Positions 5,936 through 20,399 of a stretch of DNA of 64,000 nucleotides are shown here, in pieces (position 1 is the first letter of the stretch; every line of letters begins with the position of its first letter). The stretch is taken from the NCBI RefSeq assembly GCF_016919385.1, contig NZ_CP070351.1:1674001-1738000 (forward strand), in the 5' to 3' direction. Position numbers and translations under genes: made by a program. Below the pieces are notes generated by a model. The model had not been told where the DNA came from. It saw only the letters and a list, made by a program, of their open reading frames with translations, and searched no databases. The stretch comes from Gordonia sp. PDNC005 (GTDB taxonomy: Bacteria > Actinomycetota > Actinomycetes > Mycobacteriales > Mycobacteriaceae).

Positions 5936-7822
5936 ATGACGGCAGGTGAGAAGCCGGTGGCCCCGGACCTCGACGACCAGTTGAGCCAGGCGTACGAGCG
6001 CTGGACGACGGCAGCCGCGGGAGTGCTGGCGAAGTCGGCCCGCGTGACGCCCGCCGAACTGCCCGACACTCCCGAGGCGATGCTCTCCACGGACACGCGC
6101 GATGGTGTCGCCGTCCGCCCGTTGTACACGCGGCGTGACGAGACTGCCGAGGTCGGCGCGCCGGGTGCGTTCCCGTTCGTCCGCGGCGCGGACCCCGCTC
6201 GCGACGTGACCCAGGGCTGGCGGGTCACCGAACGCTTCGGCGACGACGACGTCGACGCGGCCTCGGTGAACGAGTCGATCCTCGACGCCGCAGCCAACGG
6301 CACCAGCGGCCTGTGGCTGTCGGTCGCCGCCGACGACCTCGCCGCCGCCCTGCAGGGCGTCTACCTCGATCTGATGCCGGTGACGCTCGATGCGGGGGCC
6401 GACGGACTGGCCACGGCTCGCGCGTTCTTCGCCGCGCTCGACGCCGCTCCGCAGGCGCCGGAGACCGCGCCGACCACGGCCGCGACCACGCACAGTCTTG
6501 GACTCTCGCCCTACACCGCGCAGTTCTCCGGACGACCGACAGTCGGCGCGGCCGACGCAGCGGCTCTCGCCGCCCAGGCGCCGGTGGGCGTCCGCGCCTT
6601 CCGCGTCGACGGAACCGATTTCGCGCAGGCGGGCGCGTCGAACGCGCAGGAACTCGGGCTCCTCGTGGCCGCCGCGGTTGCCCACGTCCGTGACGCCGTG
6701 GCCGCGGGCCTCGACACGGCGGGGGCTCTCGAGCAGATCACCTTCGCCGTCTCCGTGGACGACGACCAGTTCGCAGGAATCGCCAAGCTCCGTGCGCTCC
6801 GCACCGTGTGGGCACGGGTCTCCGACGTCCTCGGCGCCCGTGAGTCCGGTGCCGCCATCACTCATGCGGTCACCGACCTGTCGATGTTCACTCAGCGTGA
6901 CCCGTGGGTGAACATGCTGCGCAGCACGATTGCGGCGTTCGGCGCCGGAGTCGGCGGCGCCGACCAAGTGACCGTCCATGCTTTCGACGCAGCGATTCCG
7001 CTCGACGCACGCACCTCGCGCACGTCGTTCACCCGTCGCATCGCACGAAACACTCAGCTTCTGCTGCTCGAAGAGTCGAACCTGGGTCGTGTCCTCGACC
7101 CGGCAGGCGGCTCCTGGTACGTCGAATCGCTGACGACAGACCTGGCCGCGGCCGCGTGGGACGTCTTCACCGCCGTCGAGAAGCAGGGCGGATACCTCGC
7201 AGCTCTCGAGTCCGGCGCGATCACCGACCAGGTACAGGCCGCCCTCGCCGCGCGTGAGAAGGCCGTCGCACACCGCAAGGCTCCGATCACCGGAGTCAGC
7301 GAGTTCCCGAATCTCGGTGAGCCGACGCTCGCTGAAGGATCTGCCCAGTCGGGTGACGTGCCGACGGCGTCGCCGCGTCTGGCGCGCGTCGCACGACACT
7401 TCGAGGCGCTCCGCGACCGCGCGGACGCCGAGTCGACCCGGCCGAGCGTGCTGCTGCTTCCGCTCGGCCCCGTCGCCGAGCACAACGGCCGGACCACGTT
7501 TGTCGCCAACCTGCTCGCCGCAGGCGGAATCGACGCCGTCAACCCTGGTCCACTGAACGCCGACACCGTCGGTGACGCCGTCGCCGCCCACCCGGCGTCG
7601 ATCGCGGTGCTGTGCGGAACCAAGGCGCGCTACGCCGACGAGGGCCCCGCGTCGGCCGAAGCCGCCCGAGCCGCCGGAGTCGAGCGTGTCCTGCTCGCCG
7701 GACCTGAGCGCGAATGGCCCGCCGATTACGGCATAGACGGCTCACTACGGGTCGGCATCGACGCCGTTGCGGTCCTCACCGAACTGCTCGACTCCCTCAC
7801 GACAGCCCGAGAAGGAGCGTGA
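5936..7822 (+). CDS. mutA: Methylmalonyl-CoA mutase small subunit
   Basis: The 628-residue non-catalytic subunit of B12-dependent methylmalonyl-CoA mutase, which interconverts (R)-methylmalonyl-CoA and succinyl-CoA and connects propionyl-CoA to the TCA cycle and to methyl-branched lipid precursors. It has the mutase barrel ([56 protein letters not shown]) and a degenerate C-terminal domain that lacks the cobalamin-binding DxHxxG histidine motif, as expected for the small subunit. ATG 5936 has a GGAAGG ribosome-binding site 8 nt upstream. mutB begins 5 bp after the stop; meaB completes the operon. Confidence 0.97.
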
Positions 7823-7827
7823 ACCCC

Positions 7828-10068
7828 ATGAGCGACAACACGATTCCGAGTTTCGCCGACGTTGAACTGACGCCGGCAGTCGCCGAAGTCGGCTCCGGCG
7901 ACGCGCTGACCGCTCCGTTGGCGTCTGCACACGGTTACACGGCTGAGCAGGTCACGTGGAGCACACCGGAGCAGATCGACGTCCAGCCGGTGTACACCCG
8001 CGCCGATCGCGACGCGATCGCACGCGACGGCGGCTACCCGCTCGACTCCATCCCCGGTGAGACGCCGTTCATCCGTGGTCCGTACCCGACGATGTACGTG
8101 AACCAGCCGTGGACGGTTCGTCAGTACGCAGGCTTCTCGACCGCCGCAGAGTCGAACGCGTTCTACCGCCGAAACCTGGCCGCGGGACAGAAGGGCCTCT
8201 CGGTCGCCTTCGATCTCGCGACCCACCGCGGCTACGACTCCGATCACCCGCGCGTTGCAGGCGACGTCGGCATGGCCGGTGTCGCAATCGACTCGATCCT
8301 GGACATGCGTCAGCTGTTCGACGGCATCGACCTGGGCAACGTCTCCGTCTCGATGACGATGAACGGCGCGGTGCTGCCGATCCTCGCGCTGTACGTCGTC
8401 GCAGCCGAAGAGCAGGGTGTGCCGCCGGAGAAGCTCGCCGGAACCATTCAGAACGACATTCTGAAGGAGTTCATGGTCCGCAACACCTACATCTATCCGC
8501 CGGCGCCGTCGATGCGGATCATCTCCGACATCTTCGCGTTCACCAGCGCGAAGATGCCGAAGTTCAACTCGATCTCAATCTCCGGCTACCACATCCAGGA
8601 GGCCGGAGCGACGGCCGATCTGGAGCTGGCGTACACCCTCGCCGACGGCGTCGACTACATCCGCGCCGGTCTGGCCGCGGGTCTGGACATCGACAAGTTC
8701 GCGCCGCGTCTCTCGTTCTTCTGGGGCATCGGCATGAACTTCTTCATGGAGGTCGCGAAGCTGCGCGCCGCGCGTCTGCTGTGGAGTGAGCTCGTCGCCG
8801 AGTTCAACCCCAAGAACGCGAAGTCGCTGTCGTTGCGCACGCACTCGCAGACCTCAGGCTGGTCGCTGACCGCGCAGGACGTCTACAACAACGTGGCCCG
8901 CACGTGCGTCGAGGCGATGGCGGCGACACAGGGTCACACCCAGTCGCTGCACACCAACGCGCTCGACGAGGCGATCGCCCTGCCGACCGACTTCTCGGCC
9001 CGCATCGCCCGCAACACCCAGCTGCTGCTGCAGCAGGAATCGGGAACCACCCGACCGATCGACCCGTGGGCCGGTTCGAACTACGTCGAGTGGCTCACCC
9101 ACCAGCTCGCTGAGAAGGCTCGTGCGCACATCGCCGAGGTCGAGGCCGCTGGCGGTATGACCAAGGCCATCGAAGAGGGTCTGCCGAAGCTTCGCATCGA
9201 AGAGGCCGCAGCTCGCACCCAGGCCCGTATCGACTCCGGTCGCCAGCCGCTGATCGGCGTCAACAAGTACAAGGTGGCCGACGACGAGGAGATCGAGGTC
9301 CTCAAGGTCGAGAACTCGAAGGTCCGCGCAGAGCAGCTAGCGAAGCTCGAGAAGCTGCGTGCCGAGCGCGACCAGTCGGCCGTCGACGCCGCCCTGGCCG
9401 AGCTGACCCGCGCGGCTGGCGAGTCGGGCGGCGGCATGGAGAACAACCTGATGGCCCTGGCCATCGACGCGGCGCGCCACGGTGCGACCGGCGGTGAGAT
9501 CTCCGATGCGATGGAGAAGGTCTACGGTCGTCACCAGGCCGAGATCAAGACGATCAGCGGCGTCTACCGGAACGAAGCAGGTGATGCGGTGTCGAACATC
9601 GACGATGCGTTGGCCGTGGTCGACGAGTTCGCCGAAGCCGAAGGCCGTCGTCCCCGGGTGCTCGTCGCGAAGATGGGCCAGGACGGTCATGACCGTGGCC
9701 AGAAGGTGATCGCCACGGCGTTCGCGGACCTGGGATTCGACGTCGACGTGGGCCCGCTCTTCGCGACGCCAGAAGAGGTGGCGGCGCAGGCCGCGGACAA
9801 CGACGTCCATGTGGTGGGTGTGTCGTCCCTGGCCGCCGGTCACCTCACGCTGGTGCCCGCTCTCCGCGAGGCGCTCGCTCAGGTCGGTCGCGAGGACATC
9901 ATGATCGTCGTCGGCGGCGTCATCCCGCCGGGTGATTTCGACGAACTGTACGAGGCGGGCGCCGCGGCGATCTTCCCGCCCGGAACGGTCATCGCCGATT
10001 CTGCGGTCGATCTGATCGGCAAGCTGGCCGACAACCTGGGCCTGGAACTCGCGTCCCGGTCGGCATGA
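7828..10068 (+). CDS. mutB: Methylmalonyl-CoA mutase large (catalytic) subunit
   Basis: Catalytic adenosylcobalamin-binding subunit, 746 residues. The N-terminal barrel includes [20 protein letters not shown] with substrate-binding residues. The C-terminal Rossmann-like domain has GQDGHDRG with the cobalt-ligand His621, followed by [10 protein letters not shown] and VVGGVIPP, the full DxHxxG/SxL/GG signature. ATG 7828 is chosen because GAAGGAG stands at 7811-7817 with ideal spacing; an in-frame GTG at 7819 is too close to that site. The stop overlaps the meaB start (ATGA), so the chaperone is co-translated. Confidence 0.98.
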
Positions 10069-11063
10069 GTTCAGCAGCTGCCGGCAGGCCAGTGGACGTC
10101 GAGGCTCTCGCCGACGGTGTCCTCGCGGGACGGCGTGCCGACCTCGCGCGGGCGATCACGCTGGTGGAGTCCACCCGCGCCGACCATCGTGAGGCCGCAC
10201 AGCGTCTCCTTCTGCAGCTGACGCCGCACGCGGGGAAGTCGTTCCGCGTCGGCATCACCGGTGTCCCCGGAGTCGGGAAGTCGACGACGATCGAAGCGCT
10301 CGGCATGCATCTGATCTCACTCGGTCACAAGGTGGCGGTGCTCGCTGTCGATCCGTCGTCGACCCGCACACGTGGGTCGATCCTCGGTGACAAGACTCGG
10401 ATGGGTCAGCTCTCGGCGGCACCCGAGGCGTATGTCCGTCCGTCGCCCACGTCGGGCACTCTCGGTGGTGTCACCAAGGCGACGCGCGAGACGATCGTGC
10501 TCGTCGAGGCCGCCGGCTACGACGTGGTCCTCGTGGAGACGGTCGGCGTCGGGCAGTCGGAGGTCAGCGTCGCCAACATGGTCGACACGTTCACCTTCTT
10601 GACGCTGGCCCGTACCGGCGATTCGCTGCAGGGCATCAAGAAGGGTGTGCTCGAGCTCGCAGAGATCGTCGTCGTCAACAAGGCGGACGGCAAGCACATC
10701 ACCGAAGCACGCGGGGCGGCCCGTGAACTGCGGAACGCACTGAGCTTCATCTACCCGCACGATGCTCTCTGGACACCACCTGTCCTCACGATGAGCGCTA
10801 TCGAGAAGACCGGCGTCGACGACTTCTGGAGCTCCATCCTCAAGCACCGTGACGTGCTGACTGAGGCCGGCCAGTTCGATCGTCGTCGCGCGACTCAGCA
10901 GGTGGACTGGATGTGGACGATGGTCCGTGAGTCGGTGCTCCACCGCATCGAGTCGGCTCCGGACGTTCGTGCCGCCCGCGCCGAGGTCGAAACCGGTGTC
11001 CTCGACGGCACTCTGACCCCGACTCTCGCCGCCGAACAGATCGTCCGCGCCGCCGGGTTCTGA
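10065..11063 (+). CDS. meaB: Methylmalonyl-CoA mutase-associated GTPase MeaB
   Basis: G3E-type GTPase that gates cofactor loading and protects methylmalonyl-CoA mutase from inactivation (MMAA homologue). The 332-residue protein has a P-loop GVPGVGKST at residues 66-74, [18 protein letters not shown] (switch region), [10 protein letters not shown] (Walker B/switch II), and VVNKADG for guanine recognition (NKxD). It overlaps mutB by four bases and ends the mutAB-meaB operon. The next gene is convergent, and a small hairpin spans both stops. Confidence 0.97.
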
Positions 11064-11076
11064 CAGAGCTTGTCAG
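11060..11076. terminator. Small hairpin across the convergent meaB and permease stops
   Basis: CTGACA-GAGCT-TGTCAG: a 6-bp stem with a 5-nt loop. Each arm contains the stop codon of one of the two convergent genes. It is short, with no T-run, so it is a weak terminator at best. Confidence 0.3.
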
Positions 11077-11870
11077 CGGACCTGGGCGCGAGAGCGGATC
11101 CGTCCGAGGACACCGAGGATCACCACGGTCACGAGCACCAACAGCAAAGTGTTCGCGGCGGCGGTGAACAGCTCACCACGGTCGGACTGCGTGAAGATCG
11201 TGACCGGAAGTGTGCGCCATGATCCCGGGTACACCATGATCGTCGCTCCCAGTTCGCCCATGCACAGCGCCAACGACAGCCCGGCCGCGGCGGCGATGGC
11301 CGGGGCGAGCAGTGGCAGGGTCACTTGGACCAGGATCCGGGTGCCGGACGCTCCGAGGGAGCCCGCGACCTGGTCGAGCGCCGGGTCGAGCGACTTCGCC
11401 GCCGCCGACACCATCGAGAACGCGAACGACAGCACCAGCAACGCCTGCACGAGAATCACGATCGATGCGGTGCCGTTGAGGACGATCGGCGGGCGAGAGA
11501 AGGCGATGAGGATCGCGAGGCCGATCACCACCGAGGGCACGGCGACGGGAACGTGATAGGCGGCGTCGAGCAGACTCCGCAGCCGAGGCGGGGCCTTGCG
11601 GACCGCCAGCGCCGCCCACGTGCCGACGGCGACGGCGATCGCGGACGCGATGATCGCCGTCTGCACCGACACGGCGACACTCTCGGCGTTCTCGGCCGAC
11701 AGAACATCGGACACGTGACCGGTCGTCCAGGCAGTCGGCAGAACAGATGTCCACGAATCGGCGAACGCGGTGATGGCGGTGACCGCGATCGGCGCGACGA
11801 TCAACGCGCCGACGACGAGGAGGAAGATCAGCCAGATGAGTGCTCTCGACGAGCGGCTTCGGACGAGCAT
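11073..11870 (-). CDS. ABC transporter permease, phosphonate (2-aminoethylphosphonate-type) uptake
   Basis: Inner-membrane permease of a binding-protein-dependent importer, 265 residues with six membrane segments (N-terminal ALIWLIFLLVVGALIVAPIAV; C-terminal TLLLVLVTVVILGVLGRI). The EAA-like cytoplasmic loop that contacts the ATPase reads AAAKSLDPALDQVAGSLGASG. ATG 11870 follows the stop of the other permease after 3 nt. It is the last gene of the five-gene reverse operon. The substrate is inferred from the neighbouring FAD enzyme and phosphonatase-like hydrolase; similar permeases also import iron, spermidine or sulfate. Confidence 0.88.
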   Translation of the reverse strand: MLVRSRSSRALIWLIFLLVVGALIVAPIAVTAITAFADSWTSVLPTAWTTGHVSDVLSAENAESVAVSVQTAIIASAIAVAVGTWAALAVRKAPPRLRSLLDAAYHVPVAVPSVVIGLAILIAFSRPPIVLNGTASIVILVQALLVLSFAFSMVSAAAKSLDPALDQVAGSLGASGTRILVQVTLPLLAPAIAAAAGLSLALCMGELGATIMVYPGSWRTLPVTIFTQSDRGELFTAAANTLLLVLVTVVILGVLGRIRSRAQVR

Positions 11871-11873
11871 GGG

Positions 11874-12755
11874 TCAGGCTCCCGTCGTGTCGAACCGGCG
11901 CACGACGGCCCGGTACAACAGGTAGGCGCTCAGTGAGAGCGCGAGCTGAATGGTCGCCAGCACCGCAGCGGTCGCGAAGTCGGAACCGACGATGGACGTC
12001 GTGTAGATCAGCATGGGCAGGGTCGTGACGTCTTTTGCACCGGTGAAGAGGACGATGCCGAACTCGTTGAGCGTGAGCAGGAACACGAGCGATGCGGCTG
12101 CAGCGAGAGCGGGCCACACCGCTGGAAGGATCACCCGGGCCGCGATCCGCAGGGGACCGGCGCCGAGCGACGACGCGACGTCGATCTGGGCGCTCGGGAA
12201 CTGACTGAACGCGGCGAGCAGCGGCCGCACGACAAACGGGGTGTAGAAGGCGATCATCGCCAGGACGACGCCGATCACCGAACTCATGAAGGTGAACCGG
12301 TGCCCGGTGCTCGACGACACGACGCCGACGGGCCCGAACAGGACACCGAGAGACAGGGGAATGAGAAAGGAGGGCAGGGAGACCACGGCCTCGACCACCC
12401 GCACCACGAACCGCGACCCGGCGAACGGGATGAAGGCGAGCACAAACGCTACGAAGGTTCCGACGATCACACAACCGGCGGTCGACAGCGCCGCGACCTC
12501 GAGGGTCCGCACGAACGCCTTCTGCACGGCGCCGTCCGAGAGGGCCTTCGACCAGGTCTGCGTGCTGACGTAGTTGTCGTCGCGGTCGGTGAACGATCGG
12601 GAGACCGCCAGCGCCAGCGGGTAGCCGAGGCTCGCGATCACCACCACGAGCGGTCCGACGAGCAGCACGATCCGCCCGACACGGGCGAGAGCGATGCGAG
12701 GCGCAGTGGTTCTGACCATCGTGCTCTTGGAGGGTGCGACAGCGGTGCTCATCAT
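11874..12755 (-). CDS. ABC transporter permease, phosphonate (2-aminoethylphosphonate-type) uptake
   Basis: Second permease of the importer, 293 residues, with six predicted helices (IVLLVGPLVVVIASLGYPLALAVSRSF first; AVLATIQLALSLSAYLLYRAVV last). The ATPase-contact loop is AAFSQFPSAQIDVASSLGAGPLR. It overlaps the ATPase gene by four bases (ATGA) upstream and precedes the second permease by 3 nt, so the three are stoichiometrically coupled. Having two separate permeases with one ATPase fits the PhnSTUV type of aminoethylphosphonate importer. Specificity is an inference from context. Confidence 0.88.
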   Translation of the reverse strand: MMSTAVAPSKSTMVRTTAPRIALARVGRIVLLVGPLVVVIASLGYPLALAVSRSFTDRDDNYVSTQTWSKALSDGAVQKAFVRTLEVAALSTAGCVIVGTFVAFVLAFIPFAGSRFVVRVVEAVVSLPSFLIPLSLGVLFGPVGVVSSSTGHRFTFMSSVIGVVLAMIAFYTPFVVRPLLAAFSQFPSAQIDVASSLGAGPLRIAARVILPAVWPALAAAASLVFLLTLNEFGIVLFTGAKDVTTLPMLIYTTSIVGSDFATAAVLATIQLALSLSAYLLYRAVVRRFDTTGA

Positions 12756-13906
12756 GCGCTCTTGTCCGCCGGGACCATGTGGACGTCGTGTGGCGCAACA
12801 TCGACGAACAGTCGTTCACCGGGTTCTGGAGCACGGTCGAGAACCGGCACGTCGACGCCGAGCCGCTGATCGGTCGCCACGATCCGGACACGGACGTGTC
12901 GGGTGGGTCCCCGCCACTGGACGTCGTCGACCTCGACTTCGAATCCGTTCTCCGGCGGCACACTGGTGAAGCGCCAGGCCCACGGGCGGACGGCGAGCGC
13001 GACGTGGCGGTCGGCGGACACGCCGTCGACACTGCGGGCGCGCACGGGCAGACCTCCGTGGTCGAGAACACCGATCTCGCCTGCGGCGATGTCCGTGGTC
13101 GCGCGCACCGGGAGGATGTCGGCGCCACCGAGGAACGTCGCCGCGAACTCGCTCGGCGGCCGATGGAAGAGACGGTCGGCGGTGTCGATCGACTCGAGCC
13201 GCGCATTGCGCATCAGGGCGATCCGGTCGGCGAGAGCGAGTGCCTCCGCCTGATCGTGGGTGACGTGCACGATCGCCACATCGGGCAGATCGCGTCGCAG
13301 TTGCTGCAACTCGATGAGCATGTCCTGGCGAAGACGGGTGTCCAGGGCCGACAGCGGCTCGTCGAGCAGAAGCAGGTCGGGCCGTCCGGCGAGGGCCCTC
13401 GCGATCGCGACGCGCTGCTGCTGACCGCCGGACAGTTCTCGGGGGAGACGGTCGACGTAGGAGAACATGCCGACCATGCGGAGGACTTCGTCCACCCGCG
13501 GTTTGATCTCGGCGCGCGGGGTGCGCCGAGCTTGGAGACCGAACGCGACGTTCTTCCGGACCGTCATGTGCGGGAACAGCGCGTACTGCTGGACGACGAA
13601 TCCCACACCGCGGGCCGACGGCGGGAGCGCTGTCACGTCCCTACCGTCGATCTCGACACGTCCGGATACGACGTTCTCGAACCCGGCGATCGCCTTGAGC
13701 GCCGTCGACTTCCCCGAACCCGATGGGCCGAGGAGAGCGAGCGTCTCGCCTCGCGCGACCTCGAACGAGCAGTCCTGCAGTGCGACCGTCTTCCCGTAGG
13801 CGACGGACACGGAACTCATTCGGACGGCGGGAACCACACCCGTCGCCGCATGACCCGGTTCGGTGCTCGCTGCGGTCCTGCGTGCGCGTCCGGTCTCCAT
13901 ACTCAC
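12752..13906 (-). CDS. ABC transporter ATP-binding protein, phosphonate (2-aminoethylphosphonate-type) uptake
   Basis: ATPase of the importer, 384 residues. Walker A GPSGSGKST is at residues 60-68, followed by a Q-loop (VVQQYALFPHMTV), the signature LSGGQQQR, Walker B LLLLDEPLSALD and the H-loop VTHDQAEAL. About 130 C-terminal residues form a TOBE-like regulatory domain, as in MalK/PotA-type subunits. GTG 13906 overlaps the stop of the binding-protein gene (GTGA). The 25 residues before the ABC domain are low-complexity, so a slightly later start is possible. Confidence 0.9.
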   Translation of the reverse strand: MSMETGRARRTAASTEPGHAATGVVPAVRMSSVSVAYGKTVALQDCSFEVARGETLALLGPSGSGKSTALKAIAGFENVVSGRVEIDGRDVTALPPSARGVGFVVQQYALFPHMTVRKNVAFGLQARRTPRAEIKPRVDEVLRMVGMFSYVDRLPRELSGGQQQRVAIARALAGRPDLLLLDEPLSALDTRLRQDMLIELQQLRRDLPDVAIVHVTHDQAEALALADRIALMRNARLESIDTADRLFHRPPSEFAATFLGGADILPVRATTDIAAGEIGVLDHGGLPVRARSVDGVSADRHVALAVRPWAWRFTSVPPENGFEVEVDDVQWRGPTRHVRVRIVATDQRLGVDVPVLDRAPEPGERLFVDVAPHDVHMVPADKSA

Positions 13907-14943
13907 TGCCCGGTCGCCTTGTTGTAGGCGTCGACCAGTGCGTCGAAGCGGTTGTTCACGTCGGTCCAGTCCGGGGACCAGACGTCGACGCCTGCGAGGG
14001 CCCTGGTGATGGCGTCGACGTTCGGGCCGGTGGCGTTGACGTCGGTGCGTGCCGAGATGCCGAACGCGTCGGTTGCGAGTGACTTCTGGGCGTCGACCGA
14101 CATCAGGAAGTCGATGAGCTTCTGTGCGTTGTCCGCGTGCGGCGCCTTCGCTGCCTTGCCCATGAAGTACGGGAGAGCGACTGTGGTGCGCTTGCCGTCC
14201 GGCCCCGTGGGTGCGAACGTCTCATAGGCCATCTTGTCGTTGGCGATCGCCGCGAGGGCCATCTGAACATCGCTGTTGGCGACCGAGAGCTCGCCTGTGC
14301 TCACCTTCGGGCCGAGTTTGCCGGTGGACGCCGACGGGCCGACGTTGTTGGCCTGGAGCTTCGCGAGGAAGTCCAAGCCCTGCTGCTCGCCGAACACGTG
14401 CTGGACGAGGAGGAGCAGGGCAGTGCCGTCGCCTGCCTGGCCGGGCGTCGAGTACTGGAGGCGCTGCTTGAAACGCGGATCGAGGAGGTCGTTCCACGAC
14501 TCGGGCTTCGGGTCGACGGCGGTGCCGCGGATCATGGTGAAGTAGTTGTTCGCCAGTGACACGTAGTGACCGTTGGCGGCCTTGGCCGTGGCGGGCAGCT
14601 TGTCCTCACCCGCGGGCCTGGTCTCGCCGATGACACCCTTCTTGTCAGCCTGCTGGATGAACGGGGGGAGTGTCACCAGGACATCCATCTGCGGATTCGA
14701 CTGCTCTTTGTCGGCGCGGGAGACCACCTCACCCGACCCGCCCTCGACGTAGTTGACCTTGATGCCGGTCTTTGCTTCGAACGCCTTGAACTGCGGGGTG
14801 TACCAGTCGGCGAGTCCATCGGCGCTGTACAGGGTGACGGTGTTCGGATCGTCCGAGCTGCCGCCGGTGCCGCCGCAGGCCGCGACAGATGCGAGGGAGA
14901 GTGTGGCGACCGCGATGGTCGAGGCCTTCAGGTATCGCTTCAT
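13903..14943 (-). CDS. Extracellular solute-binding lipoprotein, phosphonate (2-aminoethylphosphonate-type) uptake
   Basis: A 346-residue lipoprotein that captures substrate outside the membrane. The signal peptide is MKRYLKASTIAVATLSLASVAAC with lipobox SVAAC, so it is anchored at Cys23. The mature part has the bilobal pattern of the iron/AEP-type binding proteins (NTVTLYSADGLADWYTPQ, VNYVEGGSGEVVSR, GDGTALLLLVQHVFGEQ). ATG 14943 is preferred over the longer open frame because it starts the signal peptide and is preceded by GAAGGACT. It lies 50 nt downstream of the FAD oxidoreductase gene in the same operon. Confidence 0.9.
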   Translation of the reverse strand: MKRYLKASTIAVATLSLASVAACGGTGGSSDDPNTVTLYSADGLADWYTPQFKAFEAKTGIKVNYVEGGSGEVVSRADKEQSNPQMDVLVTLPPFIQQADKKGVIGETRPAGEDKLPATAKAANGHYVSLANNYFTMIRGTAVDPKPESWNDLLDPRFKQRLQYSTPGQAGDGTALLLLVQHVFGEQQGLDFLAKLQANNVGPSASTGKLGPKVSTGELSVANSDVQMALAAIANDKMAYETFAPTGPDGKRTTVALPYFMGKAAKAPHADNAQKLIDFLMSVDAQKSLATDAFGISARTDVNATGPNVDAITRALAGVDVWSPDWTDVNNRFDALVDAYNKATGQ

Positions 14944-14992
14944 GGGAGTCCTTCGTGAGTGCTGTGGAGTTGGTGGTGCGGGGGAATAGGGG

Positions 14993-16120
14993 TCAGACGA
15001 GGTCGCCTGCGACATGCCGCGCGGCCAGTTCGAGACCGACTGTCATGCCGACGCCGGTGGTGACCGAGCAGGCGCGAACGCCTGGCGCGAGTTCAGCCGT
15101 CAGGTACGGGCCGCCGGGGCGGGACGCGTATACGCCCTGCCAACGGCCGACGACCGTGAGGTCGACGCCGAGGATCGTCTCGACTTCGCGGACGATGAGG
15201 TCGGCGACCGTCTCGTCGAGAAACGGGTCGAGGGTGCGGTCGAGATGGTGAGAGTCGCCGATGAGGAGCGTGCCGTCGGGTCGCTGGGTGAACATGATGT
15301 TCGTGTCGGCAGCGCGTAGGTCGGGACGATCCTCGTCGATCCGTGTCGCGAGTGCGGCGACGGCCGTCGTCTCGGCGAACGCGCCGTAGCGCAGGAACGA
15401 CGTCGCAGTCAGGACGGCTGCGTTCACCCGGAAGCCGGGGTCGGCCACCTGCAGCATGGACAGGCCGCAGCGGTGCACATCGTGCTCGTCGGCGACCGCT
15501 GGTGCGGTGTAGTCGAGGTCGTGTCCCACACACACGAACACCCGTCCGGCGCGTATCGGGTCACGGGACGTGCGGATGCGGACGTCACCGTCGGACGCCT
15601 CTTCGACGCCGAGGTACGAAGTGTTCCAGCGGAACTCGACGTTGTCGCGGGCGTCGAGCCACGCCGCGATGGCAGGCGCCGTGGTGCGCGGGTCCACCCG
15701 GAGGTCGTCGAGGAGGAGGGCGCCGCCGACCACGTCGTCCGCACCCGCTCCGCCCAGGACTTCACGGGTCGAGCTCGCGTCGATCGGCGACACACTGTCG
15801 CGTGTGGACGCGAGCTCGGCGAGCACAGCCATCTCGTCCTCTGCGCGGGCCACGCCGAGACCGGCCTCCGTCCGGACGGGGACGCCCGCCCTGGTGGCCA
15901 GGTCCAGCCAGCGTGCCCGACTGCCGACGGCAAGATCGCGCAGTTCGCCTGCTTGCCCGGTCACGCAGATGTGCCCGAAGTTGCGGACCGAGGCGCCGAC
16001 CGGGCGTCGGTCGCGATCGATCACGATGACGCTGTTCCCGGCGTCGGCTGCGGCCAGTGCGTGGCCGAGGCCGATGATGCCCGCTCCGACGACGAGTACG
16101 TCGCATTCGTTGTTGCTCAC
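14993..16120 (-). CDS. FAD-dependent amine/phosphonate oxidoreductase (TIGR03364-like)
   Basis: A 375-residue DAO-type flavoenzyme. The dinucleotide motif VVGAGIIGLGHA begins at residue 10 and is followed by VIVIDRD; a RPVGASVRNFGHICVTGQ segment resembles the glycine-oxidase/sarcosine-oxidase fold. I recall TIGR03364, a clade defined by association with phosphonatase-like hydrolases and proposed to oxidise 2-aminoethylphosphonate or a relative. That fits here: the importer follows in the same operon and the phosphonatase-like gene is divergent. The proposed reaction is amine to phosphonoacetaldehyde, replacing the transaminase PhnW, which is absent nearby. GTG 16120 gives the normal N-terminus. 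Confidence 0.85.
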   Translation of the reverse strand: MSNNECDVLVVGAGIIGLGHALAAADAGNSVIVIDRDRRPVGASVRNFGHICVTGQAGELRDLAVGSRARWLDLATRAGVPVRTEAGLGVARAEDEMAVLAELASTRDSVSPIDASSTREVLGGAGADDVVGGALLLDDLRVDPRTTAPAIAAWLDARDNVEFRWNTSYLGVEEASDGDVRIRTSRDPIRAGRVFVCVGHDLDYTAPAVADEHDVHRCGLSMLQVADPGFRVNAAVLTATSFLRYGAFAETTAVAALATRIDEDRPDLRAADTNIMFTQRPDGTLLIGDSHHLDRTLDPFLDETVADLIVREVETILGVDLTVVGRWQGVYASRPGGPYLTAELAPGVRACSVTTGVGMTVGLELAARHVAGDLV

Positions 16121-16169
16121 GCCGAAGAGTTCACCGCGGGACGTACGTGCCCGCAACTGCTGGATCCAG

Positions 16170-16181
16170 TTGTATGTACAA
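16170..16181. promoter_or_regulatory. Candidate GntR operator TTGTA-N2-TACAA
   Basis: A perfect 5-bp inverted repeat with a 2-bp centre lies in the divergent region of the phosphonate locus, 50 bp before the FAD gene. A related half element (TTGTATAC) overlaps the GntR -10 box at 16268-16275. GntR/UTRA proteins bind such short palindromes. Confidence 0.5.
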
Positions 16182-16192
16182 GTTACGAATCA

Positions 16193-16244
16193 GTTCATCA
16201 GCTGTTTCCGATGGTCTTGATCGTTCATTCTTCGTTCATTCGCA
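16193..16244 (+). promoter_or_regulatory. Pho-box-like GTTCAT repeat array
   Basis: Three GTTCAT units on the same strand: GTTCATCA (16193-16200), GTTCATTC (16223-16230) and GTTCATTC (16234-16241). The last two are spaced 11 bp, one helical turn. This matches the direct-repeat units of Streptomyces PhoP boxes and the GTTCA repeats recognised by mycobacterial RegX3. It suggests phosphate-starvation control of both divergent transcripts. Confidence 0.55.
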
Positions 16245-16270
16245 AGATCAGACGATCGCAGTTTGACTTG

Positions 16271-16276
16271 TATACT
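16271..16276 (+). promoter_or_regulatory. -10 box TATACT of the GntR regulator gene
   Basis: TATACT ends 7 nt before ATG 16284, giving a predicted leaderless mRNA. It overlaps TTGTATAC (16268-16275), a half-site-like match to the palindrome at 16170-16181, consistent with autorepression. Confidence 0.6.
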
Positions 16277-16283
16277 CAGCAGC

Positions 16284-17027
16284 ATGTCGGCACCCATCCA
16301 TCAACGACTCGCGGACGAGTTCCGTGCGCGCATCGCCACAGGTCAGTGGCCCGAGGGCGTGCGCGCGCCGAGTGAGGCCGCATTGTGCGACGAGTTCGGA
16401 GTCTCCCGCGGGCCGGTTCGTCAAGCGTTGGCGACGCTCCGCGTCGAGGGGCTGCTCGTCGGCGGACAGGGACGCCCGCCGCTGGTTCGCACCGGCGTCC
16501 CGCTGCATGCCGCGAGTGCGCTCGGATCGCTGACCGCCTGGGCGGCGGATGTCGGACGGACCGCAGGGCAGCGGACGATCCTCCAGTCGAGGCATGGCGC
16601 CGACGCCGAACTGGCCCGACGTCTCGGTGTCGCAGCAGGCGACCCGGTGCTCACCATCGTCCGTGCGCGCGACCTGGACGACGAGCCCGCGGTCCTCGAA
16701 CGGATGTCGTTCATCTGGGAGGTGGGTCGAATCCTGATGGAGTTCGACCCCGACTCCGGGTCGATCAACCGTTTTATGCTCGACCGCGGCATCGACCTGT
16801 ACAGCTCCAGTCACGAGGTGGACGCGGTCGCTGCTGCCGGGGACGACGTCCAGTACCTCGGGATGACCGACGGTGCGCCGATGCTCCGAGTGCGCCGCAC
16901 CACCGAGGACTCGACCGGCCGGGTCATCGAATTCGCCGAGGACCGCTACGTGCCCGGGCAGTGCGCCATCAGCATCACCAACCGTCTGACCGCCGCCGGC
17001 GGCAGAAGTCACATCCGCCTGGCATGA
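16284..17027 (+). CDS. GntR-family (HutC/UTRA) transcriptional regulator of the phosphonate locus
   Basis: A 247-residue DNA-binding regulator. The winged helix-turn-helix covers residues 3-70 (IHQRLADEFRARIATGQWP, APSEAALCDEFGVSRGPVRQ, ALATLRVEGLLV). A UTRA ligand domain fills the rest (DDEPAVLERMSFIWE, MLRVRRTTEDSTGRVIEFAEDRY), as in PhnF. It most likely senses a phosphonate and controls the divergent operon and the downstream hydrolase. ATG 16284 is preferred over the TTG at 16263 because the -10 box stands just before it. The phosphonatase-like gene follows after 32 nt. Confidence 0.92.
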   Translation: MSAPIHQRLADEFRARIATGQWPEGVRAPSEAALCDEFGVSRGPVRQALATLRVEGLLVGGQGRPPLVRTGVPLHAASALGSLTAWAADVGRTAGQRTILQSRHGADAELARRLGVAAGDPVLTIVRARDLDDEPAVLERMSFIWEVGRILMEFDPDSGSINRFMLDRGIDLYSSSHEVDAVAAAGDDVQYLGMTDGAPMLRVRRTTEDSTGRVIEFAEDRYVPGQCAISITNRLTAAGGRSHIRLA

Positions 17028-17059
17028 CGCCGGGCGTTCGACGAGGAGACCCCCAACCA

Positions 17060-17746
17060 ATGATTGAACTCGCCGCATTCGACATCGCAGGCACGACGGT
17101 CGACGACGGCGGCGCCGTGTACGAAGCGCTGCGCACGTGTGTCACCGAGTTGGGCGCAACCGTGTCCGATACGAACCTCTCTCATTGGATGGGCACCGAC
17201 AAGGTGACCGCGATCGAGAACCTGGCCCGTCTGGGGGGCGTCACCATCGGACGCGACGAGGCGCTCGGTGCGTTCGCCCGCTTCCAGGAACTCCTTGCCG
17301 AGCGCTACCGCGCCGATCCGCCGCGGGCGATCGCGGGAGTTGAAGAACTCATCGCCCGACTGCGTGGTGCGGGCGTGAAAGTCGCTCTGACCACCGGTTT
17401 CGACCGTGCTGTTGTCAACCCGCTGTTGGCGTCGCTCGGCTGGTCACAGGGGCGCGGCGACGGTGTTGTGCTCGACGCCGTCATCACGACGGACGATGTG
17501 CCCGCCGGACGCCCGGCTCCGTACATGATCTTCCGCGCCATGGAGGCCACCGGCGTGGTCTCGGTGGCCTCGGTTCTCGCGGCGGGCGACACCGCAGTCG
17601 ACGTCCAGGCCGCCAATAACGCCGGGGCGATCTCCGTCGGAGTGCTGACCGGTCAGACGCCTGCCGAAGTGCTCGAGGGGAACGGCGCCGACCACGTGGT
17701 GGAAAGCGTCGTGCGAGTTGCCACTCTGCCCGGCGTCCTCGACTGA
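17060..17746 (+). CDS. Phosphonatase-like HAD hydrolase (PhnX-like, TIGR03351 type)
   Basis: A 228-residue HAD enzyme expected to cleave the C-P bond of phosphonoacetaldehyde or a close relative. The nucleophile motif is DIAGTTVDDG (Asp8) with the AGT pattern of phosphonatases instead of DxDxT. The cap holds WMGTDK, and Lys48 aligns with the Schiff-base lysine of PhnX (MGxxK). TTGFDR supplies motif II, and DVPAGRPAP has Arg where most HAD enzymes have Lys. AAGDTAVDVQAANNAG gives the acidic motif. ATG 17060 has GAGGAGAC upstream. It belongs to the close relatives of PhnX rather than PhnX proper, so the exact substrate is open. Confidence 0.88.
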   Translation: MIELAAFDIAGTTVDDGGAVYEALRTCVTELGATVSDTNLSHWMGTDKVTAIENLARLGGVTIGRDEALGAFARFQELLAERYRADPPRAIAGVEELIARLRGAGVKVALTTGFDRAVVNPLLASLGWSQGRGDGVVLDAVITTDDVPAGRPAPYMIFRAMEATGVVSVASVLAAGDTAVDVQAANNAGAISVGVLTGQTPAEVLEGNGADHVVESVVRVATLPGVLD

Positions 17747-17787
17747 CGGCCGCCTCCGCCTGGGCGGTCGCGGTCTCGTGAAGCCTC

Positions 17788-17864
17788 GCGAGACGATCAG
17801 TGTTGACACTGCTTACATTGAGCCCTACTCTCTGTGTTAGCAGTGTAAACATAGATCGTCTCGC
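17788..17864. repeat. 77-bp imperfect inverted repeat enclosing a promoter
   Basis: Arms 17788-17817 and 17835-17864 match at about 26 of 30 positions around a 17-bp centre. The outer 11 bp (GCGAGACGATC) are perfect. The inner 17-mers TGTTGACACTGCTTACA and the complement of 17835-17851 agree at 15 of 17 positions, and each is itself a pseudo-palindrome of form TGTTNNCA-N-TGNNAACA. This looks like two operator copies bracketing a promoter; the arms could also fold as RNA. Confidence 0.75.
17803..17831 (+). promoter_or_regulatory. Promoter of the acetoacetate decarboxylase-like operon
   Basis: -35 TTGACA (17803-17808), a 17-bp spacer and -10 TACTCT (17826-17831): a near-consensus housekeeping promoter. 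The predicted start, near 17838, falls inside the second operator copy, so a bound repressor would block both the -35 and the start site. Confidence 0.65.
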
Positions 17865-17876
17865 AAGGAGCTCACC

Positions 17877-18791
17877 ATGCCGTCCACCGCCCAGAAGACC
17901 GTTGACGTTGAACTCGGACAGCGTGTCGTGTCCGTCCCGGAGGGCGGTCTGTTCGACCGCTTCCGCATGCAGACCGACCTCGACGAGGTGTCGAAGGACC
18001 CACGCGTGCAGTCCGTCGAATTCTTCCGTCGGCTTCGCAAGACGCGAGTCGAGTCGCCGATCGGCGAGACGCACACCCCGAACTTCTACTACGCGATGTC
18101 GTCGGCGCGGCTGACGATGCTCGCCCCGACGTCGGCCATCCGCAAGCGCATTCCCGCGGAACTCGAGCCGCTCGAAGTACTTCCCGGACTCGGCATCGCC
18201 TCGGTCATGTTCTTCCGCTACGACGTCTGCGACATCGACTTCTACACCGAGGCCGCCGTCGGAGTCGCCGTCCGCCCCGCACGCCACGGCGGGCCCGGCG
18301 TGCTCGACCTCACCACCGCTCTCGTCGACGACCATCTGCACTCCTACGTTCTGTCGCTGCCTGTCAACACCGACATCGCGCAGGTTCGAGGCCATGACGG
18401 TTACGGATTCCCGAAGTGGGTCACCGACCTCGACGTCGACATCGACGCGACGCGCACCACAGCACGGATCGCGAACGCCGACGGGGGAGTCGACCTCGCA
18501 TTCACCGCGCCGACACCGCGCCAGAAGGTTTTCCCTACCGGTGACAACGTCTCCAGCCTCACCTCGTACACCCGCCTCGAGGGTGTGTGGCAGTCGACGC
18601 TCAATCAGACGAACGTCCTCGCGACCGGATCGTCGTTGTTCCCGCGCGGCACCGACCTGACTCTCGGCGACGGACGCATGTCCGACGACCTCCGTTCGCT
18701 CAAGCCGATCCGCACCATCCGGCTCGACGTCACCACCAAGGCGCAGGCGGCGCTGCACATGCCCGTTCCGGTCTCCGTTCCGACAATCTGA
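17877..18791 (+). CDS. Acetoacetate decarboxylase (ADC) family protein
   Basis: A 304-residue protein with the ADC fold. The family hallmark is DGYGFPKWVTDLDV around residue 175, where the Lys corresponds to the Schiff-base lysine region of ADC; upstream strands include VLPGLGIASVMFFRYDVCDIDFYTE. Many ADC-like proteins are not decarboxylases but aldolase-dehydratases or of unknown activity, so the substrate is open. ATG 17877 has AAGGAG six bases upstream. It is the first gene of a four-gene operon with an aldehyde dehydrogenase, a quinone oxidoreductase and a saccharopine dehydrogenase-like protein, under the 77-bp inverted repeat. Confidence 0.82.
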   Translation: MPSTAQKTVDVELGQRVVSVPEGGLFDRFRMQTDLDEVSKDPRVQSVEFFRRLRKTRVESPIGETHTPNFYYAMSSARLTMLAPTSAIRKRIPAELEPLEVLPGLGIASVMFFRYDVCDIDFYTEAAVGVAVRPARHGGPGVLDLTTALVDDHLHSYVLSLPVNTDIAQVRGHDGYGFPKWVTDLDVDIDATRTTARIANADGGVDLAFTAPTPRQKVFPTGDNVSSLTSYTRLEGVWQSTLNQTNVLATGSSLFPRGTDLTLGDGRMSDDLRSLKPIRTIRLDVTTKAQAALHMPVPVSVPTI

Positions 18792-18809
18792 CAAGCGAAG
18801 AAGCACACA

Positions 18810-20399
18810 ATGACAATCACCGCACAACATGAGTCCGTCGACACCCGTCTCCCGGCGTCGATCAGCGCCGATCTGGTGACCAGGCTCGCTTCCCTGATAG
18901 CGGCGTCTGCCGACGCCGACCGGGTCGTCACCAGTGCTCCGTACACAGGAGAAAGGCTCGCCGACCTCCCGGTGTCCACACCTGCGGACGTCGAGGCCGC
19001 GTACAGGACCGCGCGCGACGCCCAACGCGCGTGGTCTCAGACGCCGATCCGCGAGCGAGCCGCCGTCCTGCTGCGTTTCCACGACCTCGTCCTTCGCCGC
19101 CAGAACCAAGGTCTCGACCTGATGCAGGCGGAGAATGGCAAGACCCGGCGCGACGCCTTCCTCGAGATCAGCGACACCGCGATCACTTCTCGCTACTACG
19201 CGCGGACCGCAGCCAAGGCACTGGCGCCGCAACGCCGGGGCGGTGCGATCCCGTTCCTGACCCACACCACCGAACTCCACCATCCCAAAGGCGTCGTCGC
19301 GATCGTCTCGCCGTGGAACTATCCGTTGTCGATGGCGGCGGGCGACGCGATCGCCGCGCTGATGGCGGGCAACGCAGTCGTCCAGAAACCCGACACCCAG
19401 ACCGCGTTGACCGCCCTGTGGGCACTCGACCTCATGCGCGAAGCAGGGCTGCCCGACGGAGTCTGGCAGATGGTCGTCGGACGCGGCAGTTCGATCGGCG
19501 ACCAATTGATGGCGGGCGCCGACTACATGATGTTCACCGGATCCACGGCCACCGGTCGACAGATCGCCGCAGACGCGGGACGACGCCTCATCGGTGCGTC
19601 TCTTGAGCTCGGCGGCAAGAACCCGATGCTCGTCCTCGACGACGCGGACCTGGACAAGGCGGCCGCCGGAGCGATCAACGCCGCGTTCCCGTCGACCGGG
19701 CAGCTCTGCGTCTCCATTGAGCGGATCTATGTGGCGGAATCGGTGCGCGATGAATTCGTCGAGAAGTTCGTCGCCAAGACTCGAGCGCTCACCATCGGCG
19801 CGGCGTACGACTACAGCATCGACGTCGGCAGCCTGACCAGCGCATCACAACTCGCCACAGTGACCGAGCACGTCGACGACGCTGTCGCCAAGGGCGCAAC
19901 CGTTCTCGCCGGCGGACGCGCCCGACCCGACCTCGGGCCGCTCTTCTACGAGCCGACGATCCTGACCGACGTCACCGAGGACATGACGCTGTTCGCGCAC
20001 GAGACGTTCGGCCCCGTTGTCGCCGTCCACACCTTCAGCGACCTCGACGACGCTGTGGCCGAGGCGAACGACTCCCAGTACGGCCTCAACTCGAGCGTCT
20101 GGACACGCGACGGCGCAAAGGGCCGCGCCGTCGCGGCCAGGCTCCACACCGGGACAGTCAACGTGAACGAGGCGTTCGCCGCTGCGTGGGGCAGCATCGA
20201 CGCGCCGATGGGCGGCATGGGCGAATCCGGCGTAGGGCGTCGACACGGACGCGACGGAATCCTCAAATACACCGAGGCGCAGACCGTCGCCCATCAGCGC
20301 GGCGTCGGATTCACTCCGCCCTCGTTCATCCCGTGGCGGGTATGGGCTCCGACGCTCGGGGCCGCTCTGCGCGCCTGGCGCCTGACCGGCCTCCGCTGA
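18810..20399 (+). CDS. Succinate-semialdehyde dehydrogenase-like aldehyde dehydrogenase (GabD2 type)
   Basis: A 529-residue NAD(P)-dependent aldehyde dehydrogenase. Landmarks are the cofactor-binding VSPWNYPLSM, FTGSTATGR, the general base Glu266 in LELGGKN, and catalytic Cys300 in STGQLCVS. Length and N-terminal extension resemble mycobacterial GabD2 (Rv1731). The C-terminal 30 residues (FTPPSFIPWRVWAPTLGAALRAW) are hydrophobic and extend past the usual ALDH end. It sits 18 nt after the ADC-like gene, so it probably oxidises an aldehyde made in this pathway; succinate semialdehyde is only the nearest family label. Confidence 0.88.
   Translation: MTITAQHESVDTRLPASISADLVTRLASLIAASADADRVVTSAPYTGERLADLPVSTPADVEAAYRTARDAQRAWSQTPIRERAAVLLRFHDLVLRRQNQGLDLMQAENGKTRRDAFLEISDTAITSRYYARTAAKALAPQRRGGAIPFLTHTTELHHPKGVVAIVSPWNYPLSMAAGDAIAALMAGNAVVQKPDTQTALTALWALDLMREAGLPDGVWQMVVGRGSSIGDQLMAGADYMMFTGSTATGRQIAADAGRRLIGASLELGGKNPMLVLDDADLDKAAAGAINAAFPSTGQLCVSIERIYVAESVRDEFVEKFVAKTRALTIGAAYDYSIDVGSLTSASQLATVTEHVDDAVAKGATVLAGGRARPDLGPLFYEPTILTDVTEDMTLFAHETFGPVVAVHTFSDLDDAVAEANDSQYGLNSSVWTRDGAKGRAVAARLHTGTVNVNEAFAAAWGSIDAPMGGMGESGVGRRHGRDGILKYTEAQTVAHQRGVGFTPPSFIPWRVWAPTLGAALRAWRLTGLR

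Follow-up and report, generated by a model that had tools for sequence, protein, structure and literature searches.

A Putative PhnW-Free Route of Phosphonate Import, Oxidation and Cleavage in Gordonia, with a Hydrolase from a Clade Apart from PhnX

Introduction

Phosphonate use by bacteria is often inferred from marker genes. The PhnWX pathway, of the Salmonella and Bacillus type, comes with a PhnSTUV importer. Here, we analyze a seven-gene locus of Gordonia sp. PDNC005, located in a stretch of 64,000 nucleotides (contig NZ_CP070351.1, positions 1,674,001 to 1,738,000), hereafter the window. Like the PhnWX–PhnSTUV system, the locus has a 2-aminoethylphosphonate (AEP)-type importer and a HAD hydrolase with an Asp nucleophile and a Schiff-base Lys. 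It differs in having an oxidase instead of the transaminase, and its hydrolase falls below the cut-off of the phosphonatase model TIGR01422 (116.6 vs. 220 bits). A route without PhnW, ending in a hydrolase that scores under the PhnX model, would escape PhnW/PhnX surveys.

Two described systems are closer. Mariniblastus fucicola has a cluster encoding PbfD2 and PhnX, in which a DAO-family oxidase containing flavin adenine dinucleotide (FAD) makes phosphonoacetaldehyde from N-methyl-AEP or AEP and a HAD hydrolase cleaves it; according to that report, the cluster lacks PhnW, and apparently so does the genome (PMC10590968). The window locus resides in an actinobacterial host. Its oxidase is likened to PbfD2 at the level of the TIGR03364 family rather than of a subgroup, and its hydrolase belongs to TIGR03351, a clade apart from PhnX that has no equivalents of PhnX His56, Tyr128 and Cys22. 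In the hpnW–phnX operons of Achromobacter, a TIGR03364 oxidase likewise replaces PhnW and adjoins an importer and a hydrolase. There, the hydrolase is a PhnX with the His56 equivalent kept, and the regulator is LysR-type (PMC11203657).

Our proposal is that the locus of this soil-type bacterium likely encodes a PhnW-free import–oxidize–cleave route for phosphonates, with phosphonoacetaldehyde as the intermediate (probability roughly 0.7). It draws on computed gene content, family membership, the absence of PhnW and PhnJ at cut-off, residue patterns and co-occurrence. As judged from profile matches, the route appears largely known: the role of the oxidase is largely that of PbfD, so that the locus would be a variant of the known PbfD–PhnX pathway. 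The unusual part is the TIGR03351 hydrolase clade, which lacks residues used by PhnX.

The Genes of the Proposed Route

The seven genes span positions 11073–17746, five on the minus strand followed by a regulator and a hydrolase gene on the plus strand. The minus-strand order is oxidase, binding lipoprotein, ATPase, first permease, second permease. Neighbors among these five either overlap by 4 bases or are 3 to about 50 bases apart, a spacing suggestive of a single transcript. Protein families were called with NCBIfam models at their curated cut-offs and domains with Pfam, for nine window proteins (11073–20399); start sites were judged from sequence. The features are as follows.

11073–11870, minus strand: second permease of an ATP-binding cassette (ABC) importer, PhnV-like; best NCBIfam match TIGR03255 (PhnV), 189.9 bits, below the cut-off of 358.7
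11874–12755, minus strand: first ABC permease, PhnU-type AEP permease; NF011624, 316.5 bits (cut-off 247)
12752–13906, minus strand: ABC ATPase, PhnT-like; best match TIGR03258 (PhnT), 336.5 bits, below the cut-off of 499.15; 4-base overlap with each neighboring frame
13903–15015, minus strand, start probably 14943: AEP-type binding lipoprotein, PhnS-like; NF011620, 460.3 bits (cut-off 310); lipobox SVAAC by eye
14993–16156, minus strand, start probably GTG 16120: FAD amine oxidase, TIGR03364/PbfD family; 364.7 bits (cut-off 285.1)
16170–16181, no strand assigned: weak candidate operator TTGTATGTACAA between the divergent genes
16263–17027, plus strand, start probably ATG 16284: GntR/UTRA regulator, PhnF/HutC-like; Pfam GntR and UTRA; best NCBIfam match TIGR02325 (PhnF), 88.7 bits, below the cut-off of 156.8
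17060–17746, plus strand, start ATG 17060: phosphonatase-like HAD hydrolase, 228 amino acids; TIGR03351, 232.5 bits (cut-off 218.9)

Thus, four proteins pass a curated cut-off: the oxidase, the hydrolase, the binding protein and the first permease. The oxidase matches TIGR03364 over nearly the full model (positions 2–364 of 365), and its AlphaFold model (mean predicted local distance difference test, pLDDT, 92.3) has L-amino acid deaminase and glycine oxidase as fold matches. In the account of Zangelmi et al. (2023), PbfD1 of A. baumannii is annotated as TIGR03364, and both PbfD1 and PbfD2 convert N-methyl-AEP and AEP to phosphonoacetaldehyde, the characterized PbfD enzymes favoring N-methyl-AEP. 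For pbfD genes outside the PbfD1 subgroup, phnX alone is the commonest partner, and PbfD clusters without PhnW exist (PMC10590968). The role of the TIGR03364 oxidase is therefore largely known, and the profile would assign that role to the window oxidase.

The binding protein and the first permease score above the cut-offs of the AEP models NF011620 and NF011624 and below those of TIGR03227 PhnS (340.2 of 395.3 bits) and TIGR03226 PhnU (226.3 of 283.45 bits). The nearest PDB chain to the binding protein is 4r6y, a putative AEP-binding protein, at 259.8 bits; none of the remaining 13 listed, most of them iron binders, exceeds 50.8 bits. On this evidence, an iron or polyamine binder was rejected.

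The whole 4.26 Mb genome, a single contig, was searched with further profiles. The PhnW model scores at best 32.1 bits, its cut-off being 400.8, and the C–P (carbon–phosphorus) lyase model PhnJ has zero matches; PhnW or C–P lyase elsewhere in the genome was thus rejected. The PhnX model finds the window hydrolase at 113.5 bits (cut-off 220) and next a match of 30.3 bits, and the best match to the alcohol dehydrogenase HpnZ scores 142.3 bits (cut-off 328.1). No second route among those tested reaches cut-off; PhnY/PhnA, PhnY/PhnZ and similar routes were not searched for.

A preliminary description of this DNA had given the same seven genes with the same coordinates and strands, and had proposed a phosphonate importer, a TIGR03364/TIGR03351 pair and the absence of a PhnW transaminase. 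The profile searches bear out all of these, as they do the import–oxidize–cleave logic, and the binding protein groups with AEP-type 4r6y and not with iron or spermidine binders. Its statement that the substrate of the pair is not firmly established is outdated for the oxidase family, since substrates of other PbfD/TIGR03364 enzymes are established in the work cited above (PMC10590968).

A Hydrolase Clade Apart from PhnX

The hydrolase passes TIGR03351 and fails TIGR01422, and its nearest named relative is from Gordonia malaquae (96% identity; the database listing may omit records of the source genome itself). A single branch with support 100/100 parts 28 PhnX-like sequences from 22 PhnX sequences in a 50-row tree. 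Alignment places Asp8, Lys48, Arg151, Asp177 and Asp181 at PhnX Asp12, Lys53, Arg160, Asp186 and Asp190, all kept. In contrast, Ala51, Phe114 and Gly18 sit at PhnX His56, Tyr128 and Cys22. The earlier claim that the phosphonatase hallmarks are retained thus holds for Asp8 in the DIAGT motif, Lys48 in MGTDK and Arg151, and was overstated for the clade as a whole, in which the equivalents of His56, Tyr128 and Cys22 are replaced.

Residues were tallied in 207 PhnX-like rows, 199 of them distinct; these comprise the window, 86 loci and 120 relatives from databases, L071 having been dropped for a wrong frame and L035 removed as a true PhnX. The comparison set is 120 PhnX rows (118 distinct), for which the Rubrobacter PhnX served as query and TIGR01422 scores were not computed row by row; both tallies are skewed towards relatives of their query. 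Asp8 and Lys48 are each kept in 206 of the 207 PhnX-like rows. In the PhnX rows, the Lys and the His are found in all 120, the Tyr in 119, and Cys or Ser at position 22 in all 120. When 46 PhnX-like representatives below 70% identity are taken, Ala51 has a frequency of 0.89 and Phe114 of 0.96; His and Tyr are present in all 39 PhnX representatives. Positions conserved in the PhnX-like clade but not in PhnX hold hydrophobic or small residues. The AlphaFold model of the hydrolase (pLDDT 94.6) has PhnX 1swv as its best Foldseek match. A search of open-access papers found no mention of TIGR03351 or TIGR03366.

Two copies deserve separate mention. L030, from genome G008, is a degenerate copy, the sole tallied row lacking both the nucleophilic Asp and the Schiff-base Lys, and its function is probably changed or dead. 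The hydrolase match at G297:C1:3192192–3192842 has one internal TGA, possibly a pseudogene or a sequencing error.

Pairing with the Oxidase and Possibly Exchangeable First Steps

Hydrolase loci were surveyed in the best 80 of 105 relatives, picked by similarity to the window hydrolase. A TIGR03364-like oxidase lies within 4 kb of the hydrolase at 64 of the 80, with a similar GntR regulator nearby at 52 of these 64. HpnZ is found at six loci, two with the oxidase as well and four, all mycobacterial, without it. By BLAST similarity to examples, the 64 oxidase loci carry PhnSTUV (four, all Gordonia), PhnCDE (34), an ABC binding protein that fits no named family (six) or a GlpT-like carrier of the major facilitator superfamily (two). 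When example neighbors were checked against family models, PhnE scored above cut-off, HpnZ did so in two of three, and the binding protein lay above the TIGR01098 cut-off and below that of TIGR03431 PhnD.

In a phylum sample of 198 genomes (E 1e-40 for TIGR03351, 1e-30 for TIGR03364), each family is found in eight genomes and both in five. Four of the five have the genes about 50–125 bases apart; in the source genome the regulator lies between them. The hydrolase occurs without the oxidase in G096, where an adjoining alcohol dehydrogenase resembles HpnZ by eye, in G050, and in G008 with its degenerate copy. Three genomes have the oxidase without TIGR03351: two matches are below cut-off, and the third genome, G195, is Rubrobacter tropicus, as judged from a protein with 100% identity; its TIGR03364 oxidase (460.2 bits) and a true PhnX (TIGR01422, 325.5 bits) are separated by about 60 bases. 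Distances of hydrolase and oxidase are correlated in a mirror-tree comparison (r = 0.922, 68 rows, i.e., 67 loci and the window; none of 1000 shuffles as high), which carries little weight because species history is uncorrected and the Rubrobacter true PhnX is included.

The genus sample comprises 59 genomes, with counts that ignore relatedness. The hydrolase family is present in 23, the oxidase family in 22 and HpnZ in six, and all 22 and all six are within the 23. The oxidase lies 64–4554 bases from the hydrolase in every oxidase-bearing genome, one of which, G337, has a partial match below cut-off. By coordinates, HpnZ is 0.2–3.6 kb from a hydrolase copy in all six HpnZ-bearing genomes. The pairing of oxidase and hydrolase in the genus is thus above chance, uncorrected for the relatedness of the genomes.

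Six loci of the genus, L133 to L138, were read in detail. L138 has the window gene set in changed order and with diverged copies (oxidase 32% and hydrolase 35% identical), L137 has the oxidase and hydrolase with a GlpT-like carrier, and L136 has hydrolase, PhnDCE-like genes, HpnZ and oxidase all together. At L134 and L135, an additional copy of the hydrolase is accompanied by PhnDCE-like genes and by HpnZ, without the oxidase. L133 comes from the sole genus genome with a hydrolase and no oxidase. At L133:6885–11818, its hydrolase is found with a MocR-type regulator and two enzymes that pass their models: an alanine dehydrogenase, at 509.9 bits for a cut-off of 391.85, and an aminotransferase, at 625 bits for the NF005102 cut-off of 574. 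We take the aminotransferase to be of class III, and the gene set presumably resembles that of taurine catabolism. L133 is possibly a transaminase version of the route, known from one genome, in which the aminotransferase may serve another amine.

All three enzyme types, amine oxidase, alcohol dehydrogenase and transaminase, would yield a carbonyl compound. Together with the conserved Lys, this gene context points to a 2-oxoethylphosphonate as the substrate of the TIGR03351 hydrolase. The occurrence of a TIGR03364 oxidase with a true PhnX in Rubrobacter, and of TIGR03351 beside HpnZ or an aminotransferase, points to an aldehyde. Oxidation of 2-hydroxyethylphosphonate would directly yield phosphonoacetaldehyde (PMC12366243); PbfC and PbfD enzymes do not oxidize it (PMC10590968), which would leave HpnZ a separate function.

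A wider proposal is more tentative, and we put it at somewhat less than even odds: TIGR03351 may be a mechanistically distinct class of C–P hydrolases that keeps the two covalent residues, does not use the His/Tyr/Cys set, and stands at the common end of an exchangeable funnel. Both amines and alcohols would be converted to the same 2-oxoethylphosphonate, the former through the FAD oxidase or a class III aminotransferase paired with alanine dehydrogenase, the latter through HpnZ.

Proposed Pathway and Its Alternatives

In the proposed scheme, in which we infer the substrates, products, electron acceptor and regulation, the PhnSTUV-type importer would take up AEP and/or N-methyl-AEP. The PbfD-type flavin oxidase would carry out an oxidative deamination to phosphonoacetaldehyde, probably with O2, giving H2O2 and ammonia or methylamine. 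Since the oxidase would itself yield phosphonoacetaldehyde, the PhnW transaminase would not be needed. The hydrolase would form a Schiff base on Lys48, Asp8 would attack the phosphorus, and phosphate and acetaldehyde would be released, in a pocket predicted to depart from PhnX in its water-organizing residues. The GntR/UTRA regulator, between the two transcription units, may control both.

A number of results weigh against this reading. The ATPase, the second permease and the regulator have a phosphonate model at the top of their NCBIfam lists yet score below its cut-off, so that the PhnT and PhnV parts of the importer fall short of their models. Among relatives, no importer was recognized by BLAST at 18 of the 64 oxidase loci, and both oxidase and HpnZ are missing from 12 of the 80 hydrolase loci, three of them actinobacterial and the other nine proteobacterial, acidobacterial or uncultured. 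The tie of the window oxidase to PbfD is at the level of the TIGR03364 profile. In the hydrolase tally, position 56 of PhnX is Ala in 199 rows, Val in seven and Gly in one, and His in none of the 207; position 128 is Phe in 204 and Tyr in three; and position 22 is Cys or Ser in none. No compensating conserved polar residue stood out at positions at least 85% conserved among the 46 representatives. In the mechanism described for PhnX, Tyr128, Met49 and His56 activate the water molecule that attacks the Schiff base, and Cys22 holds a metal-bound water (PMC7916636). In a clade without His56, Tyr128 and Cys22, either these hydrolysis steps are done otherwise or another aldehyde is the substrate; activity on phosphonoacetaldehyde cannot be assumed, and the question is raised of how a Schiff-base C–P hydrolase works without them. 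The top VIA-align match (Z 27.9) is 3s6j, a different HAD hydrolase, ahead of PhnX 1swv (26.8). As other HAD hydrolases are level with or above 1swv, the fold does not decide function.

The concerted departure from PhnX, which affects three positions of the active site as well as hydrophobic ones, would also fit the same route acting on a different aldehyde: 1-hydroxy-2-aminoethylphosphonate or another substituted aminophosphonate would be imported, and the altered pocket would accommodate the substituted aldehyde. 1-Hydroxy-2-aminoethylphosphonate is proposed in the TIGR03364 description as quoted in PMC10590968, and Phn-HD oxygenase-like genes lie near two hydrolase relatives (207.8 and 212.8 bits, TIGR03276 cut-off 214.6). 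We nevertheless consider it rather unlikely, in that none of the nine window proteins scanned matches Phn-HD, a true PhnX partners the TIGR03364 oxidase in Rubrobacter, and the characterized PbfD enzymes favor N-methyl-AEP over AEP and yield phosphonoacetaldehyde (PMC10590968). It is highly improbable that the importer is adjacent by accident, the hydrolase being an ordinary HAD phosphatase and the substrate of the oxidase a non-phosphonate amine. The failure of fold alone to single out PhnX and the 12 loci without oxidase or HpnZ would suit such a case. HAD phosphatase chemistry, however, is not known to need a residue of the Lys48 type, which is conserved in all but one of the PhnX-like rows, and the pair repeatedly has a phosphonate importer of one of two types beside it, PhnSTUV-like at four and PhnCDE-like at 34 of the 64 oxidase loci. 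In addition, the tested PbfC and PbfD enzymes show no reaction with sarcosine, taurine or beta-alanine (PMC10590968).

The least probable of the explanations weighed here is a route that serves synthetic N-substituted phosphonates (e.g., glyphosate) instead of natural AEP derivatives. Being a phosphonomethyl compound, glyphosate would not yield a 2-oxoethylphosphonate, and both the importer models and the nearest solved binder are AEP-type. In its favor are glyphosate-degrading Achromobacter, in which the flavin oxidase HpnW takes the place of PhnW in phosphonatase operons; its ligands, glycine derivatives resembling glyphosate, are in silico predictions (PMC11203657). To summarize the fate of the earlier interpretation, import, pairing, the lack of PhnW and the route logic stand; the substrate statement and the hallmark claim do not stand as worded. 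The preferred reading remains the PhnW-free route through phosphonoacetaldehyde.

Regulatory Site and Neighboring Genes

PhnF membership of the regulator falls short at the TIGR02325 cut-off, with GntR and UTRA domains both present. The sequence TGTANNTACA has a single match within the window. It is present in three of 52 relatives scanned, the two closest Gordonia and Arthrobacter L041 (as TGTATATACA), and absent from 49. A shared operator was thus rejected, and the site is kept as a weak candidate.

On one side of the locus, genes at 7714–11063, presumably mutB (methylmalonyl-CoA mutase) and meaB (the chaperone of the mutase), directly adjoin the operon of the importer at its 3′ end; four named Gordonia loci (L036–L039) have homologues in the same place. 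On the other side, downstream of the hydrolase at 17877–20399, are a gene with a Pfam ADC match, acetoacetate-decarboxylase-like, and one for a succinic semialdehyde dehydrogenase (NF006916, 801.9 bits). The former is conserved in two of the four named Gordonia loci. The relation of both to the phosphonate genes is one of adjacency.

Among relatives, L106–L109 and L111–L115 have nine TIGR03351-like hydrolases without oxidase, HpnZ or a recognized phosphonate importer, which may have another role; an MmgE/PrpD-like gene is nearby, by eye, in at least L106–L108. The Phn-HD-like genes mentioned above, at L060:7978–8667 (207.8 bits) and L028:1643–2269 (212.8 bits), hint at further phosphonate enzymes in those neighborhoods.

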